NCBI GenBank assembly: GCA_000697665.1
Contig: KL197714.1
Coordinates: 910,728 to 974,727, forward strand
Source of the DNA: Jaapia argillacea MUCL 33604
Lineage: Eukaryota > Basidiomycota > Agaricomycetes > Jaapiales > Jaapiaceae
Reading direction: 5' to 3'
DNA length: 64,000 nucleotides
Shown here: positions 24,104 to 64,000 of the stretch, piece after piece
How positions within the stretch are numbered: position 1 is the stretch's first letter
Layout of the letters: each line of letters begins with the position of its first letter
Notes under the pieces: model-generated
The model's database searches: none
What the model was told of the DNA's origin: nothing
Seen by the model: the letters and a program-made list of their open reading frames with translations, nothing else
Made by a program: the position numbers and the translations under genes

Positions 24104-25330
24104 GTCCCAACATCTCCATCATCTCACCAACCTTCACCCAATGCAACCCCTTTGTCAGGATGTCAGCTGGCATCTCATCTGTCCTCAGATGCACCACCCT
24201 AATCTTCTTCCCCTTGGCCACCTCATCCCTCAGCCAGAAAAAGCAAAGGTCCATGTGCTTCATGCAGCCATGGTGTTCAGGGTTCTTGGCAACAGAGATG
24301 GCAGACTGGTTATTGATGTAAAGGAGGGAAGGTTTGTTGAATGTGAAGCCAAACTCTGTGAATAGGTTGTGCAATGTCCAAGTTCCCAGCATAGTCAGCA
24401 TCAGAATAGGTGGTGAACAGCTCTGGGGAAGAGGAGGGTGAATAGGTCAACTTGTAATCAAGCATACCTCTCAAATAGCAAAGAGGTGTGGAATGGCCTT
24501 CCAGTGTTGCATCCCAGGGTTCTTGCTGAAGTGAGCCAATACTCCCACTGCATAGGCAATGTCTGGACAAGTGGCAACTGCAAGGTAAGCAAGGGCACTG
24601 ACAGCATTGATGTAGGGAATGGAGTGCATCTCTAACTCTTCCTCTCAAGTTTGAGGTGACATCTTGGTGGTGAGGTTTGCACCAGGATCAATAGGGGTGG
24701 TGATGCTGTTGCAGTTGCTCATCTGGAAGTGGTTGAGTATGTTGATGGTGTATTGGTGCTGGGAGAGAGAGAGGATTTGCTTGGAGTGGTCTTGTTCAAT
24801 CTGAACACCTAGAAGCCATGAAGTGGGACCCAAGTCATGAAGCTTGAAGCAAGAGCTGAGTTCATCCTTGACACACTGAATGGCTGCCTTGGACTGAGCT
24901 GTAATGGTCACCATCTCCTCACTTGAAAACCCAGATGCTGTGCTCACAAACCAATCAAACAAATTGCATCTTCTCCACCAACACCTCATTCAATTTCTCA
25001 TGCCAACACCACCCCACCTGCTTCAACCTATACAACAACTTCAGCAGCTTCCACACCCAATCATCACCCTTCTCATCAAATACTTCAGGCTGCTTCATGT
25101 ACACTTCCTCCTGAATGTCACCATTCAAATAGGCAGCTGAAATATTGACGCTCTCCAACTCCAAGTCCTCCAGAGTGGCAAGCAAGTACAGCATGAAGAG
25201 ATGCCCATTTGGGAGTGGGGGCAAAGGTTCCATTGAAGTCAAAGCCAGGACACTGTGAAAAGCCCTTGGCCACCAATCTCCCCTTGTACCACTCAATAGA
25301 GCCATCTGCCTTCCCCTTCACTCTAAATAC
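24093..25330 (-). mobile_element. Copia reverse transcriptase / RNase H remnant (second lineage)
   Basis: Minus-strand translation shows ALTSMEPLPPLPNGH, AAYLNGDIQEEVYMKQPEVF and WKLLKLLYRLKQVGWCWHEKL, the copia RT core, then HDLGPTSWLLGVQIEQDHSK. The RNase H part shows LLYINNQSAISVAKNPEHHG and RTDEMPADILTKGL. It differs clearly from the copia element at 15536-22561. It is broken, with several breaks, and I see no matching LTR pair. Confidence 0.82.
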
Positions 25331-25399
25331 CCATCAACTCCCAATGGCACATTGACCAGGTGGAAGGTGCTATCACGCAGCAAAGGTGGAGGTGAGGAG

Positions 25400-55410: not shown

Positions 55411-58400
55411 ATGGCTACGAGACTTCTACCCGTCGTTTCTGTGCTCTTGTCTCTCTTGATATGTCGCGTCGCTGCTGTTACGACAGTGGTGATCAATGGT
55501 ACCGCCAGTCATACGATCCCGCCTACCTTGTGTGAGTCGACATCATCACCAATTTCTTTGAAGGAACATACATTGACGTGTCGACTAGATGGACAAATGT
55601 TCGAGGCAAGCCATCTGCCTCACTTCCACCGCATAGTTGTTGATCTTTTCGTGTAATTTGAATAGGACATTAGCGTGAGCATTCTCCCTGATGCTGATGT
55701 ATAATCCCTCCTCTGACCTTGTTTGTAGCATGTAAATAGTGATCCTTATCCCTTGTGGTTCATCACTGACATTTAACAGAGTGGTGACGGAGGGCTTTAC
55801 GCGGAACGTACGTCCTAATCCCCATTTCCTCTCTACTCACCCTTCTAACCCAATAATCACAGTCCTCCAAAACCGTGCCTTCCAACAGGTCACACCCAGT
55901 CAGTACTTCTACACAAGTCAAACCTGCATCGCTAAAACATGAAATCTCTGTGTCAGATACAACCACTGCATTGACTGCATGGCACCCAATCAATGGAGCC
56001 TCTCTAACAGTCATCTCAGATCCTCTCCCCGTCTCTTCCGCCTTACCCAACTCTCTTCAACTCACCGTTCCAGCTGGCTCCTCCGGCCCTGTCGGATTTG
56101 GGAATGAGGGCTACTTTGGTTGGTTCTCTCCGCCTCTCGTCTCACTTCAATCTGCTGAAATCTCGATTCTTCCTATAGGGATCAAAGTGGACTCCACCTG
56201 GACCTACAACGCATCCTTCTACTACCGTTTCCCCACAGCTTCCACTTTCTCAGGTCCAGTTACCATCGGTCTTCAAACATCTTCAGGTCAACCACTCGCC
56301 TCAACCACCACCGCCCTTCCATACTCCTCCACCTGGAAGCAAATCTTCGTGCAACTGACGCCTACAGTCTCTGGTAGCACAACTGCGAATAACTTTACCG
56401 TCACGCTCAACGGAGCGAGCGGGGTAACGATTAACTTTGCGATGTTTTCACTCTTCCCGCCTACTTATAAGGGCAGGGCTAATGGGATGAGGGTTGATAT
56501 CGCTACGGTGCGAATGTCTTCCTTTGGATCGTGTTGGGCGGAGGACTGAATAGTTACCCGAGCAGACATTGGCAGGCATGGCACCCTCGTTCTTCCGGCT
56601 TCCAGGCGGAAACAACCTCGTGCGTTCTTCTCACCCCTTCTCACCCATGACCGATCTCAATGTCCTCGATTATAGGAGGTAATTAAATACTCCTATCACC
56701 TCCGTTTCGTGAGGAATTCGTAATTGATTTCTTCCCTTTCGTTCGTGATGCTTCAAGGGCCAAACAACGGCCACTCGCTGGCAATGGAATGCAACTGTCG
56801 GTCCTCTCCTCGACAGACCAGGTCGCTACGGAGACTGGGGATACATCAATACCGAGTAGGTCTTCTCCCTTTTCCCGCTTAGGCGATACTGATCCAATGG
56901 TCTCTTTTGCTTTTCTAGTGGTCTCGGGCTTATGGAATACATGTATTGGTGCGAGGATGTCGGCATGCAGCCTATCATGGCCGTTTGGGCAGGTACGCAT
57001 CCTCAGCTTTTCACTTTCCATTCCATTCCATCTTCCTACTGCTTTCACCCTTCATCTAATGCTCTTCGATTGGTGTTCCAGGATATTCCCTTGGTGGAAC
57101 CAGCCTGAACGAGACGAGTTTGGCTCCGTATATCCAGCAGGCCATTGATCAGGTATGCTCTCATTATGATGATAACGGGTACCTCTGGGCTTGACATGTT
57201 GAAATTCGCTAGATCGAGTTTGTGATTGGTGATCCAACGACCACAGCCGGAGGTGTGTTATCTCGACGCAGAGTTCTGACATTCGAACCAACATCTGTCG
57301 TCGTATAGGTGCTCTGCGCGCTTCTCTCGGTCGCTACGAGCCTTTTAACTTGACTTATGTCGAGATTGGAAATGAGGTGGGCATGATCTCCCATACTAGG
57401 TTCCTCTCCTTCGTATTTCTCATCAGTTATCTGCAGGATTTCTTTGCGGCAACTTCGTTAGTACCCCAAATTCCTCACTCCCCATAGGCGACTAACATGT
57501 TACATTCAGATATGTCTATCGGTGGCGTGACTTTGCGGGCAATCTTACCGCTGCGTTCCCACAACTTCGTCAGTCTAACTTCACTCCCTCCTTTCATCAT
57601 CCCGACTCTGGATGTGCCATGGCCCAACTCTGCTGACGCTTTTTTACAGGATTCATCGCGACAACATACGCATGGAATCCCATGCTGACCCCCACCCCTC
57701 TTCAATATGACGTCCACGTTTACCAGACTCCTAGTACGTTCCCTTCTCCCTCGTTGGCTCATCATCAACTTCATGCATTTTGCACAAGGCTGGTTTGCGC
57801 AAAACGCTTTCTACTATGATAGCTTCGAAGTACGTCCATCATCTCGAATAGTCGTTTGAATTCATGGATTGATCGTGCCCTGCAGCGTAACGGCACGACC
57901 TACTTTGAGGTACACTCACTCTCACCTTTCGATGAATGCATCTGACCGCTGATCAGGGAGAGTACGCTGCCATCTCAACAAACGCGTCCAACTTGTATGG
58001 TGCTATCGGGACTGGTCGGTTGATGTACCCCACCATGGAAAGTAAGGCACTCTCGGAACCAAGTGCCCTACCCATTTGCTAAATACCTGACCACAAAGGC
58101 TCCACTGGAGAAGCTGCGTTTATGACTGGGTTGGAAAGGAACAGTGATATCGTGTTTGCTGCTTCATATGCTCCTCTTTTGAATGTAAGTTTTTCACCCT
58201 TCCTCGCAAACAGCGATCCTCGGACTAACATTTTTGTGCTCTCTCCAGCACATTGTCGATTCGCAATGGGTGCGTGATGATGACATTTAGGTTGAATTCG
58301 CGCTTATAACAGGTTCGCAGACACCGAACCTCGTCAGCTTCGAGTAAGTTCCAAACCGATGTCCGAACGCAGTGTGAGGTAATAACCATTTCCAATAGTG

Positions 58401-58889
58401 CCGGTACCGTGTATGCATCCACAAGCTACTACGCTCAGCAGGTGATGTCAATCAACTCAGCTTGGTGATGAAATTCTGAACTTTCCCTAGTTGTTCAGTG
58501 TCAATCGCGGAGACGTGTACCTTCCTAGCACTCTCCCCACCGTGGACGGGACTCTCTTCTGGAGTGTGACTCGTCGAACGGCGACCCAAGAACTATTGAT
58601 CAAGGTGCGTCATTCCTTCCTAATTCCAACACAAGGCGCCGAGTAACACCGTTATAAATAGGTGTCCAATACCATCGCGACTTCCGCCCCCATGACCTTC
58701 GAGCTCCCGTACGCCACAGTCGCTGGCTTTGGAACAGCTCAAGTCTTGCAGGGTTCGCAGAACACTAGCAACAGCCCCGCTACGCCTTATGCTGCCGTTC
58801 CCGTGGCCACCCCGATTGTCACTGGGAAGACCTTCAATTACACTGCACCAGGCTACAGCGTGAGCGTCCTCACTGTCAATGCCTACTAA
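55411..58889 (+). CDS. Secreted GH51 alpha-L-arabinofuranosidase, 27 exons
   Basis: Twenty-seven exons give 646 residues. Exon starts are 55411, 55589, 55666, 55729, 55780, 55863, 55957, 56179, 56566, 56676, 56758, 56919, 57082, 57213, 57309, 57437, 57510, 57650, 57789, 57886, 57957, 58099, 58249, 58321, 58399, 58491 and 58662. A signal peptide (about 1-22, [19 protein letters not shown]) is followed by [19 protein letters not shown], then [44 protein letters not shown], the acid/base YVEIGNE (Glu 371) and the nucleophile GEYA (Glu 449). The enzyme releases arabinose from arabinoxylan and pectin side chains outside the cell. Two exons are only 3 nt (55729-55731 CAT; 56676-56678 GAG), and intron 2 has a GC donor (55606). 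Several Asn-X-Ser/Thr sites fit secretion. The stop is 69 bp from the convergent HDAC stop. Confidence 0.95.
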
Positions 58890-58958: not shown

Positions 58959-60447
58959 TCATAAGGGCTGCATGGCTACCTCTGAAAGTCTCTGAGAAAG
59001 CAAATCTACGACTCTGTTGAATACGCCTTCCACCTCTACTAAGTATTCTTCTCCGTTTTGATCTTGCATGTTCCCAGCTGGAACATCCAAGGTAAACGAC
59101 GGTGCATAAAGTGGGAATGCACTGTGGTCGGGGATGTCCGTCTCAAGAGACAGTTTACTCCCAATCTACGAATCAGGATGAGTTAGGGGGGTTGGCTACC
59201 GACAAGAAGGGACTCACTGCGATGGAGGTCAAATACGCCCACGCACGAGCAGCGTTTGGATGATTGTAGCCGCCTAAGTGTCTCGGTAAGCATTGTCTGA
59301 AAAACAACTCAGAAAGATTCAACCTCCGCCTAGAAGGACTGTCTTGCACGACCACTCCGTTATGACCCGCTCGATGCACCAGCCAAGGCTTCCTTCCTCC
59401 TCCCCTAGGCACCAATTCCATGTCGCACAAGAATCCCCAGCCAAACCATCACAGCCGCACTGAACAACCAAGTAGTCCGGGAAAAATACATCCTTGATCC
59501 TCTCCACAATCTTCCACACTCGAGCAAACGTGGCAGAAGATGCACCCTCATTGAGCGGGAGCGAAAGCATCAACGGGTTGAAGTCAGGGTCATTGGTATC
59601 GGGAAGAAAGGCTGGAGTTGAGCTTGAGAAGAAGCCGCGAGATGCGTGATGGATGGATAAGTGAAGGAAATTTGAAGAATTCGACCACCGGAAAGCTTGG
59701 TAGACTCCGTCGGAGAAATGTAGATCCAGATCCAAATACATTACTCTTGGTTTTTTTGGCGCAAGAGGAGTCACATCGAGCGAGAGAGTTACGGGTGGAG
59801 GTCGCCCGAGGTTCAGAATCGCGAGTACGCAATCAGCGACATAGCAAAATCCGGAAGCTTGCGATCTCAGCGCATGATGCCTGCTCTCATTCATGAGTAC
59901 CCCTTAGCCAAAGACAATTGCGGTGGAGATGAGCTGACCTCCCGCCATCCCAACATATCGCAACCCTCGCCGGAGTTCGACGTAGAGCCTCTGTCGCCGT
60001 TAGAGTTGCTCCAGCAACAAGTCGGACGTATTCAGGTAGACCAGGAAACGGAGGACAGTCCTATCGGCACCTCAGAGAGATGCAAGCACAGCGAAGAATT
60101 GACAATCACGTCTTCCAAGCCAAAAGTAGAGCACAACTTCTCGTTCGCCGTGGAGGGGTCTTGTGAATTTACGGGATCTAGGATGAAGTCGAGGTATGTA
60201 GGAGTGTGATAGACTGAGAGGTTCTTGTAAGAAGCGAGAATTGGTCGGAGGATTTGGATGCGACTTGATGACAGAAGCTCCAAAGATTTTACAAGAGAAT
60301 GAACGATGATAGAGCGATTGATATTTGAGGGCAAAAGGGACGAGATCTACCCAAGAATGTGAGCTGATCGCACTGTGTATCGCACAGATATCCACACACC
60401 TTCACCAGATCGTCTGAGATGACATACACAATAGGGACATCTGACAT
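58959..60447 (-). CDS. Histone deacetylase, class I type (Hos1/HDAC8-like)
   Basis: Six exons (60447-60400, 60346-60110, 60060-59939, 59880-59324, 59273-59218, 59165-58959) give 408 residues; introns are 49-58 bp. Family blocks in order: SSLLPSNINRSIIVHSLV, EDDCPPFPGLPEYVRLVAGA, GGRHHALRSQASGFCYVAD (His 137/138 of the charge relay), YLDLDLHFSDG (metal ligands Asp 188 and His 190), CGCDGLAGDSCATWNW, and LLGGGGYNHPNAARAWAYL with the catalytic Tyr. It removes acetyl groups from lysines in histones or other proteins. Two deviations stand out: Arg 136 where most class I enzymes have Trp before HH, and LHFSDG in place of LHHGDG. Core catalytic residues are kept, so activity is expected. The subclass is an inference. 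Confidence 0.92.
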
Positions 60448-60670: not shown

Positions 60671-62038
60671 CTACAGCTTCTCCATCTCGCTTCTGATCAA
60701 CTGCTTCGTCTTCTTCTCCATCTCACCAAAGATCTCCAACGCATCGGCAAGCCGTCTGCTTGATTCCCCATCTGCAGCTAGAGCCTCTCTCAACAGCCTC
60801 CCACCATGAGCAAGATAATCACCCTCTACGTACGTAGCTAGAGGAGAGATCGTCAGTAGAAGGTGCAACAAGAGATAACCTGGGGAACATACTTGAGGTT
60901 CCTTTGCTCTCAGACTGATGCTGCAGCGGGATACTAGTGTCAAGTTCGGGATGGTGTGGTTGTGGGGTCTGAGGCGAAGAGCTGACTGGCGCCTTTAGCT
61001 GTGCGAGGACGGCTCCTGGAATGGTGATATGATCCGGGTGGAGTGAAGCCAGGGCCTTCACCTAGACAACGATGAGTCAATCTGGTTCAACTTAAGATCC
61101 CACACACCTACTTCCGCTGCGGTGACAATGCTAAAGACGCAAGTATTTCAGTGACGAGTGTAGATATACTAAACCGAATTGACCTGGCTGGCATGACGAG
61201 TGTCGTCGACCCTATAGTTTTGAAAGTTTGAACAATCGCGCTGATCACTGGCGACATTGGGTGTTCCTTGGCAGGATCTTTGTATTCTTTCCACAACGAA
61301 GGCTCAAAGTGAGCTCGGAGCTCTAATCCGCAGTTAGATGCCACAGTTCGTTGGAGAGTAAGTCAGGTACCCACCGTTGAAATATGGAGCTACGTAGAGA
61401 CACCCTGCTTGAGATGCTGCAACCGCTTGGGGCACAGAAAAGAGAGAAGTTGCAAGAGTTCTGATGCCCTCTTGCTCTAGACGACGACATGCGATGATAG
61501 ACTCTGGAGTGGCGGGGATTTTGATGCAAACTCGAGATCTGATGTAGGTAATGAGCAAAGAGAATCCTCATAGTAGGGATACTCACCTTGGGATACCATT
61601 CTGTTCAAAGACCGATACGAGTTCTTTCGCATGCTGTACCGTCGCCTCGGTGTCGTAAGCCGCAGACGGAGATGTCTGAGCATGAACTCGACCCTTCAAA
61701 TATGGGAAGACTTCCTTGGCTAACAATACCGTCTGAGTTCAGGTGTAGTTAGTTCACCCGTAGAATTTTCGTCGGGAGTGACGCCTGACTAGGAGGTTCA
61801 CAGCGTCGTCGACCGCTCCTTCAATGTTCTTGTGACTCTCCTTGGCTGCTTGAATTACGCTCTTTAAAATGTGTGTTCTCTCCTTCCGAATCGATTCGTT
61901 GTAAACGATCGCCTGATTGGAAGTCATGTCGCAGAACTGGTAGATGGACTCGAACCCAGCAGCCACCTGAGGATCCATAGAATCGACATCGATCGTCACT
62001 GTCGAGGAGATTTGAGACAGCAAAGATATATCAGACAT
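60671..62038 (-). CDS. Transaldolase-family protein
   Basis: Seven exons (62038-61790, 61732-61587, 61538-61375, 61322-61184, 61130-61112, 61061-60893, 60837-60671) give 350 residues. Exon 5 is 19 nt; its donor GTAGGT was chosen because it gives TAAEVKALASL. Family marks are VDVDSMDP at the start, FCDMTSNQAIV, GRVHAQTSPSAAYD, VCIKIPATPESI with the Schiff-base lysine (Lys 138), GIRTLATSLFS, and the later VMPAR and ALASLHPDHITIP. It should use a TIM-barrel with Lys chemistry to move dihydroxyacetone units, as in the pentose-phosphate pathway. The sequence departs from housekeeping transaldolase (no usual TTNPS; DMTSN instead), so it may be a paralogue with another substrate. A Pro/His/Ser-rich insert sits near residues 260-290. 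Confidence 0.85.
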
Positions 62039-62542: not shown

Positions 62543-64000
62543 ATGGCCGACACCGACAGATGGCCTGAGCTCGCCGTCCCTTCCAGTCCTTTGCCATCGG
62601 AGGACGAGTCGAATCGGGTGCCAGGCGGCGCTCACGGACTGAAGCACACGCATACCATCATGGGGCCGTCCAGGACAGGAATGTACGGCATGCGAGTATC
62701 TGGTCGGAGAGCCTCTGCTATCAAACCTTCCATTAGAAACTCTCGTCTCATCAAACCAGAGTCGGATCAGGTCCTCGAAGAAGATCTTGACGAAGACAAT
62801 GGCGCTCCGCCCACTGGAGGCTCAGCGGAACCAGAGTCGTGGATAGCCGTTCCCCAGAAAAACGAGCCACGGGACGGTGGAGAGGGTGGTCAGGCCGATG
62901 GAGTGGGTGCTGGGGAGAAGGAGCCTACTGCGCCAGAGGTCCAGTTCGTACCAAAGTTCACTTTCAAAGGCGCTGCAGAGATGGAAGCTAGGCGACGACA
63001 GCGTATGATGGCTCGACGTGTGCCTCCCGGTGCAGGCGTGCGACTACCTATCCAACCTGACCCCAGTCTGAACCCAGAAATATCCTCTTCGTCATCGTCT
63101 GAATCCGACGACGACCTGTTGGCAGAAGATGATGAAGACGATTTTGATGATATGCCAGTCGATGATGATGATATGGATGGAGACGATTTCGACCCGTAAG
63201 CTTCAATCACCCCCCAATATATCATGGTTCTGACTCTGTACTCAGAGATTTTGCAGCCACCCGCACACCCGGTGTCACCTCAGACAGCGCCTCCGACGCC
63301 CTCTCCCTCCTCTCCGCTGGCAACTCTTTATCGACCTCAAACCCATCCGGCATCCCATCCTCCTTCCATACGAGTCTTAATACTGGCCGAATACGACCTC
63401 GACCTCTAAGCCCGGTCTCCGAAGGCCGTCATAGCGAAGAGAAAGCTACATCAGAACGGCCCCGAAATACTCAAGAAGATGGGTTTAGTTTCGAGATGGT
63501 CACTCCGCAAAAGGCCCCTCACAGCGATTCTAGCACCCAAACTGATTCAACAAAGACCAAAACCCGGCCTACTCCCCGCCCTTCGTCGTCGTCGTCGGAC
63601 TCGATCTTTGCGCGAGTCAAAGTCTCGCCCATCCGATCGGGTCAATCAGCCCTGACGGCCATGCTCGCATCATCCACTAGTAACTCCTCCAACCCATTCA
63701 GTGAACTGTACGCAAAGACCTCTGGTCGAGCCGAGAAAGACTCCATTTCAGTCCAAGTATTCTTCCCTCACGCCAAGAAACCTGCTGGAAAAGCCATGGA
63801 ATTGAAGGTGAGGAAGGACTCGTCGGTGGAAGAGGTCATTGGGTTTGCGTTGTGGAGTTTTTGGGAAGAAGGCTGGGGGCCAAAGTTGGATGAGGGGTTG
63901 GGTGGCGAGGATGATCCAAAGAGGGCGACGAAGTTGTCTGCTGTTGGGTGGATATTAAGGATAGCAGAAGAGGATGGGGAGGTTGACGAGGATTTCCCAT
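62543..64000 (+). CDS. AVO1: TORC2 subunit Sin1/Avo1 (partial, runs off the window)
   Basis: Exon 1 is 62543-63195 and exon 2 runs from 63246 beyond 64000 after a 50-bp intron; 469 residues are visible. The start is the first ATG in frame (MADTDRWPELAV). The N-terminal region is disordered, with a conserved-looking FTFKGAAEMEARRRQRM and an acidic run near 63090-63190. From about residue 377 the CRIM domain begins: GRAEKDSISVQVFFPHA, then MELKVRKDSSVEEVIGFAL and AVGWILRIAEEDGEVDEDFP. Sin1/Avo1 is a core TORC2 subunit; its CRIM domain recruits AGC kinases such as Ypk1/Gad8 and a C-terminal PH domain binds membrane, which would lie past the window. Confidence 0.92.

Follow-up and report, generated by a model that had tools for sequence, protein, structure and literature searches.

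The window analyzed here is a stretch of 64,000 nucleotides of the Jaapia argillacea MUCL 33604 genome (contig KL197714.1). It contains a gene for a GH51 alpha-L-arabinofuranosidase, for which we built a model by hand and checked it by script (Table 1). The coding sequence of 1941 nt specifies 646 amino acids followed by a stop codon, with zero internal stops. The introns span 47-89 nt each, so that an intron occurs about every 75 nt of coding sequence, and 9 of the 25 internal exons do not exceed 30 nt. Exons 2 through 5, in a row, measure 17, 9, 3 and 28 nt and jointly encode one block (55589-55807). Two exons, exon 4 and exon 10, consist of a single codon. As read directly from the bases, the CAT of exon 4 sits within TAGCATGTAAAT and the GAG of exon 10 within TAGGAGGTAATT.

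Table 1. Features of the GH51 gene and of other parts of the window. Positions are those of the window; a slash marks an exon-intron boundary, and intron bases in junctions are in lower case.
Feature	Position	Strand	Description
GH51 alpha-L-arabinofuranosidase gene	55411-58889	+	27 coding exons, 26 introns, 646 aa
Exon 2	55589-55605	+	17 nt; final codon GAG aligns with substrate-binding Glu23 of MgGH51
Intron 2	55606-55665	+	60 nt, GC-AG (GAG/gcaagc ... gaatag/GAC)
Exon 3	55666-55674	+	9-nt microexon GACATTAGC, Asp-Ile-Ser
Intron 3	55675-55728	+	54 nt, GT-AG; branch-like CTGAC begins 16 nt before the end
Exon 4	55729-55731	+	3-nt microexon CAT, His50 (MgGH51 His27), phase 0 on both sides
Intron 4	55732-55779	+	48 nt, GT-AG; branch-like CTGAC begins 14 nt before the end
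Exon 5	55780-55807	+	28 nt; completes the conserved block; predicted junction string GACATTAGC+CAT+AGTGGTGACGG
Exon 9	56566-56619	+	54 nt; ends in GGAAACAACCTC, Gly-Asn-Asn-Leu
Intron 9	56620-56675	+	56 nt, GT-AG; acceptor is a TAG/GAG tandem (NAGNAG)
Exon 10	56676-56678	+	3-nt microexon GAG, Glu254 (MgGH51 Glu234), phase 0 on both sides
Intron 10	56679-56757	+	79 nt, GT-AG
Exon 11	56758-56855	+	98 nt; begins with GGCCAAACAACG, Gly-Gln-Thr-Thr; predicted junction GGAAACAACCTC+GAG+GGCCAAACAACG
RVT_2 matches	24690-25369	-	Copia-type reverse transcriptase
Histone deacetylase domain	59325-59888	-	PF00850
Transaldolase-family match	61376-61984	-	PF00923
Sin1 CRIM domain	63643-63999	+	PF16978; continues past the window end

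The predicted protein passed the Pfam cut-offs for both domains, PF22848 (97.9 bits, cut-off 22.2) and PF06964 (94.4 bits, cut-off 27). The closest solved structure was MgGH51 of the mushroom Meripilus giganteus (PDB 6zps; 946 bits, E 1e-283), with identity at 418 of the 620 aligned positions (67%) and no gaps across either of the junctions formed at the single-codon exons. According to the available text of the MgGH51 study, Glu351 is the acid/base and Glu429 the nucleophile, contacts are made by Glu23, Asn231, Asn350 and Tyr402, and the arabinose is contacted by Glu23 and Asn231 (PMC7604909). All these residues are identical in the J. argillacea protein, in ungapped MFED, PGGNN, GNED, HVYQTP and YFEGEYA blocks. 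The catalytic and C-terminal domains and the active-site residues fit a GH51 enzyme of the fungal type, with its activity predicted. A mushroom enzyme as best solved match at this level of identity fits an agaricomycete gene. The start of the protein, judged by eye, is likely a signal peptide. The gene most likely encodes a functional GH51 alpha-L-arabinofuranosidase of the intron-rich basidiomycete kind, a function that we read from its sequence.

DNA was compared with protein by means of a custom spliced aligner that puts no lower bound on exon length. It accepts introns of any of the three phases, either GT-AG or, at a penalty, GC-AG; its scope is GT/GC-AG sites. In the trained mode, splice matrices were derived from 21 introns of the hand-built model, leaving out introns 2, 3, 4, 9 and 10. 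The flat mode gave uniform splice scores and made no use of the gene model. MgGH51, in which both His27 and Glu234 are present, entered the comparison as a protein and not as a gene structure (PDB 6zps; PMC7604909). With it as the query, the aligner reproduced all 26 introns of the hand-built model and no others, including those around CAT and GAG and the one with the GC donor at 55606. This full set was recovered in all nine of the nine settings that allowed GC donors (7/7 trained intron penalties and 2/2 flat). A preliminary description of this DNA had held that a clean reading through 26 introns needs both 3-nt exons, and the alignment with MgGH51, flat scores included, arrived at the same structure. 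The coordinates and bases given there (GCAAGC at 55606-55611, CAT and GAG), the lengths of the flanking introns (54/48 and 56/79 nt) and the count of 26 introns were all correct; the 9-nt exon 3 was not in its list.

The GC donor of intron 2, also proposed there, was borne out by the alignments. The GC-AG intron was returned in 70 of the 80 alignments with bacterial queries (flat scores). When GC donors were forbidden, both microexons were kept, but different introns took the place of introns 1 and 2, which cost 59 units. The usual consensus of a GC-AG donor is AG/GCAAGT. The donor found here, GAG/GCAAGC, scored 3.3 bits, compared with the donor mean of 5.9, and the acceptor, AATAG/G, scored 8.1 bits. 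Intron 2 is predicted to be an ordinary GC-AG intron.

The bacterial queries were 80 relatives, some of them truncated, aligned with flat scores and one parameter set. GAG was recovered with 79 of the 80, CAT with 71 and both with 71. Among the nine queries that missed CAT, eight lost CAT alone and one (L036) lost both microexons. In an earlier run of eight bacterial queries under two scorings, six of the eight gave both microexons under both scorings. For the other two, L003 gave neither microexon under either scoring, and L018 gave CAT under one of the two and GAG under none; their scores were at most 295, compared with 676-1416 for the other queries in that run. These failures were taken as the result of badly cut queries, and neither L003 nor L018 was among the nine misses of the 80-query run, for which the cuts were based on alignment. 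These bacterial proteins, each encoded in a single frame, carry no information on fungal introns. Two of the bacterial GH51 loci, L015 (3001-5902) and L036 (3001-5517), extend over 2.9 and 2.5 kb for ~620 residues, compared with ~1.75-2.05 kb for the other full-length loci.

For the two residues encoded by the single-codon exons, column counts were made in an alignment of 81 sequences, namely MgGH51 and the best 80 of 128 relatives found, all 80 bacterial. At the His column, 37 sequences had H, 32 had Y and 12 had F; at the Glu column, 77 had E and 4 had Q. Neither column was gapped in any of the 81. The conserved feature of the first site is a filled aromatic position rather than His itself. 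At the second block, the distant bacterial GH51 1pz2 reads GGNFVSG, with Ser in place of Glu. The claim that the family needs this His and this Glu stands for the occupancy of the two columns; as to identity, Glu is the usual residue among these relatives, whereas His is one of three aromatic ones. Among 50 aligned GH51 sequences, the strictly conserved Glu residues of Pleurotus PoAbf were given as E293, E371, E449, E480 and E488 in the available text of PMC4686458. If the numbering matches ours, as the catalytic E371 and E449 suggest, this list omits position 254 as well as the substrate-binding position 46 (PMC4686458). With residue numbers checked, His27 of MgGH51 lies four residues past Glu23, and Glu234 lies three past Asn231; the available text of PMC7604909 describes no role of their own for His27 and Glu234. 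No fungal relative was among the best 80 of 128 from the search of genome contigs, and the search of viral contigs gave no relative. Both microexons appear to supply residues at positions that the protein family keeps filled.

The splice sites of the microexons were compared with those of the rest of the gene. In the 1544 nt of intron sequence, with introns 3 and 4 and introns 9 and 10 merged and the triplets included, there were exactly two AG-NNN-GT strings, those of CAT and GAG. The acceptors scored 3.4 (CAT) and 1.4 (GAG), and the donors 5.0 and 7.0. All four values fell between the extremes of the 21 other introns, whose means were 3.2 for acceptors and 5.9 for donors; the intron 9 acceptor was below its mean. 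No clear branch-like site was seen in introns 9 and 10, where the only candidates lay farther away (CTCAC at 36 and TTGAT at 34).

Metazoan splicing is thought to recognize mainly exons, and tiny exons are hard for it. The introns that flank the microexons of this GH51 gene are short, so intron definition would apply and a minimum exon length would not be needed: the donor would be paired with the acceptor across each intron (48-79 nt). As a 3-nt exon cannot have both of its ends occupied at once, the flanking introns would be spliced in turn, the first event fusing the codon to a neighboring exon and the second joining the rest. The authors of a plant study reasoned in the same way that a microexon cannot hold the complexes for both flanking introns, which compete and are spliced in turn (PMC8831610). 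In Caenorhabditis elegans, the introns on either side of the two PRP-40-independent microexons are very short (the smallest is 49 nt, with 58 nt also named), which was taken as intron definition by default (PMC8378409). With lengths of 54/48 and 56/79 nt, the introns here are similar in size, and ordered, intron-defined, constitutive splicing would by this analogy be the expected route for both microexons. With a probability of roughly 0.88, we infer that the His (CAT) and Glu (GAG) single-codon exons are constitutively included in the mRNA of a functional GH51 gene through splicing of this kind.

It is improbable, in our judgment, that the microexons are instead alternatively spliced, with in-frame skipping that gives a secreted protein of 645 or 644 residues, probably inactive, and so tunes enzyme output. 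Such skipping would be possible without loss of frame, as both exons are in phase 0-0, and both adjoin residues equivalent to the substrate-binding Glu23 and Asn231 of MgGH51. A glucose-responsive microexon switch is described for Xlr2 of Trichoderma virens (PMC11121469). When the acceptor of a microexon was destroyed in silico, the best alignment deleted exactly residue His27 or Glu234 of MgGH51, just as the preliminary description had predicted in stating that skipping keeps the frame and drops one residue each. At intron 9, the sequence TAG/GAG/GTAATT (56673-56684) forms a tandem acceptor with a donor directly after it. Use of the second AG drops the Glu codon and leaves a re-spliceable AG/GT junction, and when the TAG was removed in silico, the aligner took the second AG and lost the Glu. 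By general experience, however, GAG is a poor acceptor, and TAG is therefore expected to win at intron 9. Skipping of a whole triplet would need a merged intron of 105 or 138 nt, the longest in the gene, compared with 47-89 nt (mean 59) for the 21 others, and intron definition should favor the nearer pairs of sites. Moreover, the residue is never missing at these columns in the 81 homologues, and no sign of regulation was seen in the sequence data here. A marginally smaller chance is given to a paired off-switch, in which conditional skipping (through the tandem of intron 9, or from the donor of intron 3 to the acceptor of intron 4) would yield a full-length but inactive secreted enzyme. Were this true, a basidiomycete would tune its hemicellulase output by one codon spliced in or out.

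We consider it very unlikely that the microexons go unrecognized, so that the mRNA uses the single 105- and 138-nt introns and both residues are lost, either as a tolerated deletion or in a decaying gene. The outer sites and the frame of the merged introns are intact, which agrees with this reading. The triplets themselves would then have arisen by chance. Each merged intron was shuffled 20,000 times with its dinucleotides preserved and with 8 nt at the outer donor and 16 nt at the outer acceptor left in place, and we counted as a success a phase-0 AG-NNN-GT that encoded H/Y/F or E/Q and had a splice score equal to or higher than the real one. Only 0.055% (CAT) and 0.02% (GAG) of the shuffles passed; without the score condition, 0.89% and 0.20% passed. 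Loss of both residues would thus need a triplet with good sites and a residue of the right class to have arisen by chance twice, independently, and also two deletions in columns that are never gapped. Decay is further opposed by the state of the gene, which is otherwise without internal stops and 67% identical to MgGH51. Least likely of all is that the residues come through other splice sites, for example with the triplet joined to a neighboring exon: non-GT/GC-AG sites and 1-2-nt exons inside a codon lie outside the aligner's model, but removal of the acceptors in silico, at a cost of 21.7 (CAT) and 17.3 units (GAG), uncovered no alternative GT/GC-AG route to either residue, and the aligner found no substitute and deleted the residue.

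For the preferred reading, that of two constitutively included single-codon exons, we asked how unusual such a pair is. Random placement of 26 introns over 1941 nt was simulated 50,000 times: 4.1% of the runs contained at least two exons measuring exactly 3 nt, and 26% contained at least two that were no longer than 3 nt. The presence of two such exons in one gene, regarded as striking in the preliminary description, is therefore only moderately so. The pair is a mild tail event, uncommon but not extreme. As it is only this in a very intron-dense gene, a special process of origin is not needed; we infer that, where introns lie as close together as this (about one per 75 nt), a pair of insertions would sometimes land one codon apart.

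Exons as small as these have been described before, though rarely, and gene-finding programs are prone to overlook them; ordinary read mappers may likewise pass over exons of 3 nt. Our literature searches mostly covered material outside subscription journals, and among the matches listed there was neither a 3-nt exon in a basidiomycete nor a microexon in a GH51 gene. Among the papers listed for the structure of the Pleurotus ostreatus GH51 gene, none described such exons. The words 'exon' and 'introns' were absent from the text of PMC3129051. Two candidate reports of fungal microexons, PMC3990503 and PMC4014442, were rejected, as the mentions in their available texts concern read-mapper settings only.

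A length of 3 nt is near the lower limit for an exon, as had been claimed, but it is not at the limit and is no record, for exons of 1 nt have been published in Fusarium (PMC12940212) and Arabidopsis (PMC4674806). The 1-nt exon of Fusarium CYP621A is covered by RNA reads and, like the exons described here, is an ultra-small exon in a conserved motif of a fungal enzyme gene (PMC12940212). An intronless relative aided its inference and an overlong merged intron served as a clue, as in our case, and a further feature listed as shared is that nearly all existing gene models of it are wrong (PMC12940212). The two cases differ in that omission of a 1-nt exon breaks the frame, and in that the Fusarium exon, from Ascomycota, comes with 20-24 orthologues and 18 RNA reads (PMC12940212), whereas the exons here are 3 nt long, in frame, two per gene and predicted from DNA. 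The exon of Arabidopsis APC11 is likewise ultra-small, constitutive and placed between introns, but it is from a plant, 1 nt long and experimentally shown; before that study, 3 nt was the smallest size known for an alternatively spliced exon (PMC4674806). The P450 genes of Phanerochaete chrysosporium resemble the GH51 gene in that they encode enzymes of a basidiomycete and combine numerous short introns with exons only a few codons long, although the shortest exon listed in the available text is 6 bp (2 aa), compared with 3 nt here (PMC1184071). Plant microexons, including 9-nt ones in GH32 invertases and AP2, are also tiny coding exons in conserved motifs that are usually included; a survey of ten plant species identified 2,398 small microexons, mostly unannotated and some in conserved domains (PMC8831610). 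They differ from ours in that those of flowering plants most often measure 9 nt and that cross-species conservation was tested (PMC8831610). An in-frame exon of exactly 3 bp, as here, is present in Drosophila homothorax, but it is an alternative version of an exon of 48 bp, of which it makes up the first 3 bp, and belongs to a developmental regulator (PMC7392893).

If RNA bears it out, this would be a clean case of a basidiomycete gene with two single-codon exons, both of them constitutive and both next to substrate-binding residues. Such a case would show that intron-defined splicing with short introns sets almost no lower bound on exon size. Skipping keeps the frame, so an annotator gets no frameshift warning, and models of mushroom glycoside hydrolases may, in that case, silently miss single conserved residues. 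Enzymes made from predicted sequences that lack such residues could be inactive.

Pfam scans covered part of the window: 18-33 kb on both strands, 52-64 kb on the plus strand, 59-62 kb on the minus strand and 33-36 kb on the minus strand (two frames). The RVT_2 matches on the minus strand consist of consecutive pieces in three frames, which we interpret as a putative decayed or interrupted retrotransposon. Around them, at 18.7-38.0 kb, every stop-to-stop frame was shorter than 170 aa. The gene that adjoins GH51 carries the histone deacetylase domain, and HDAC8 enzymes are among its best solved relatives (82 bits). The transaldolase-family match (95 bits) lies beyond this deacetylase gene.
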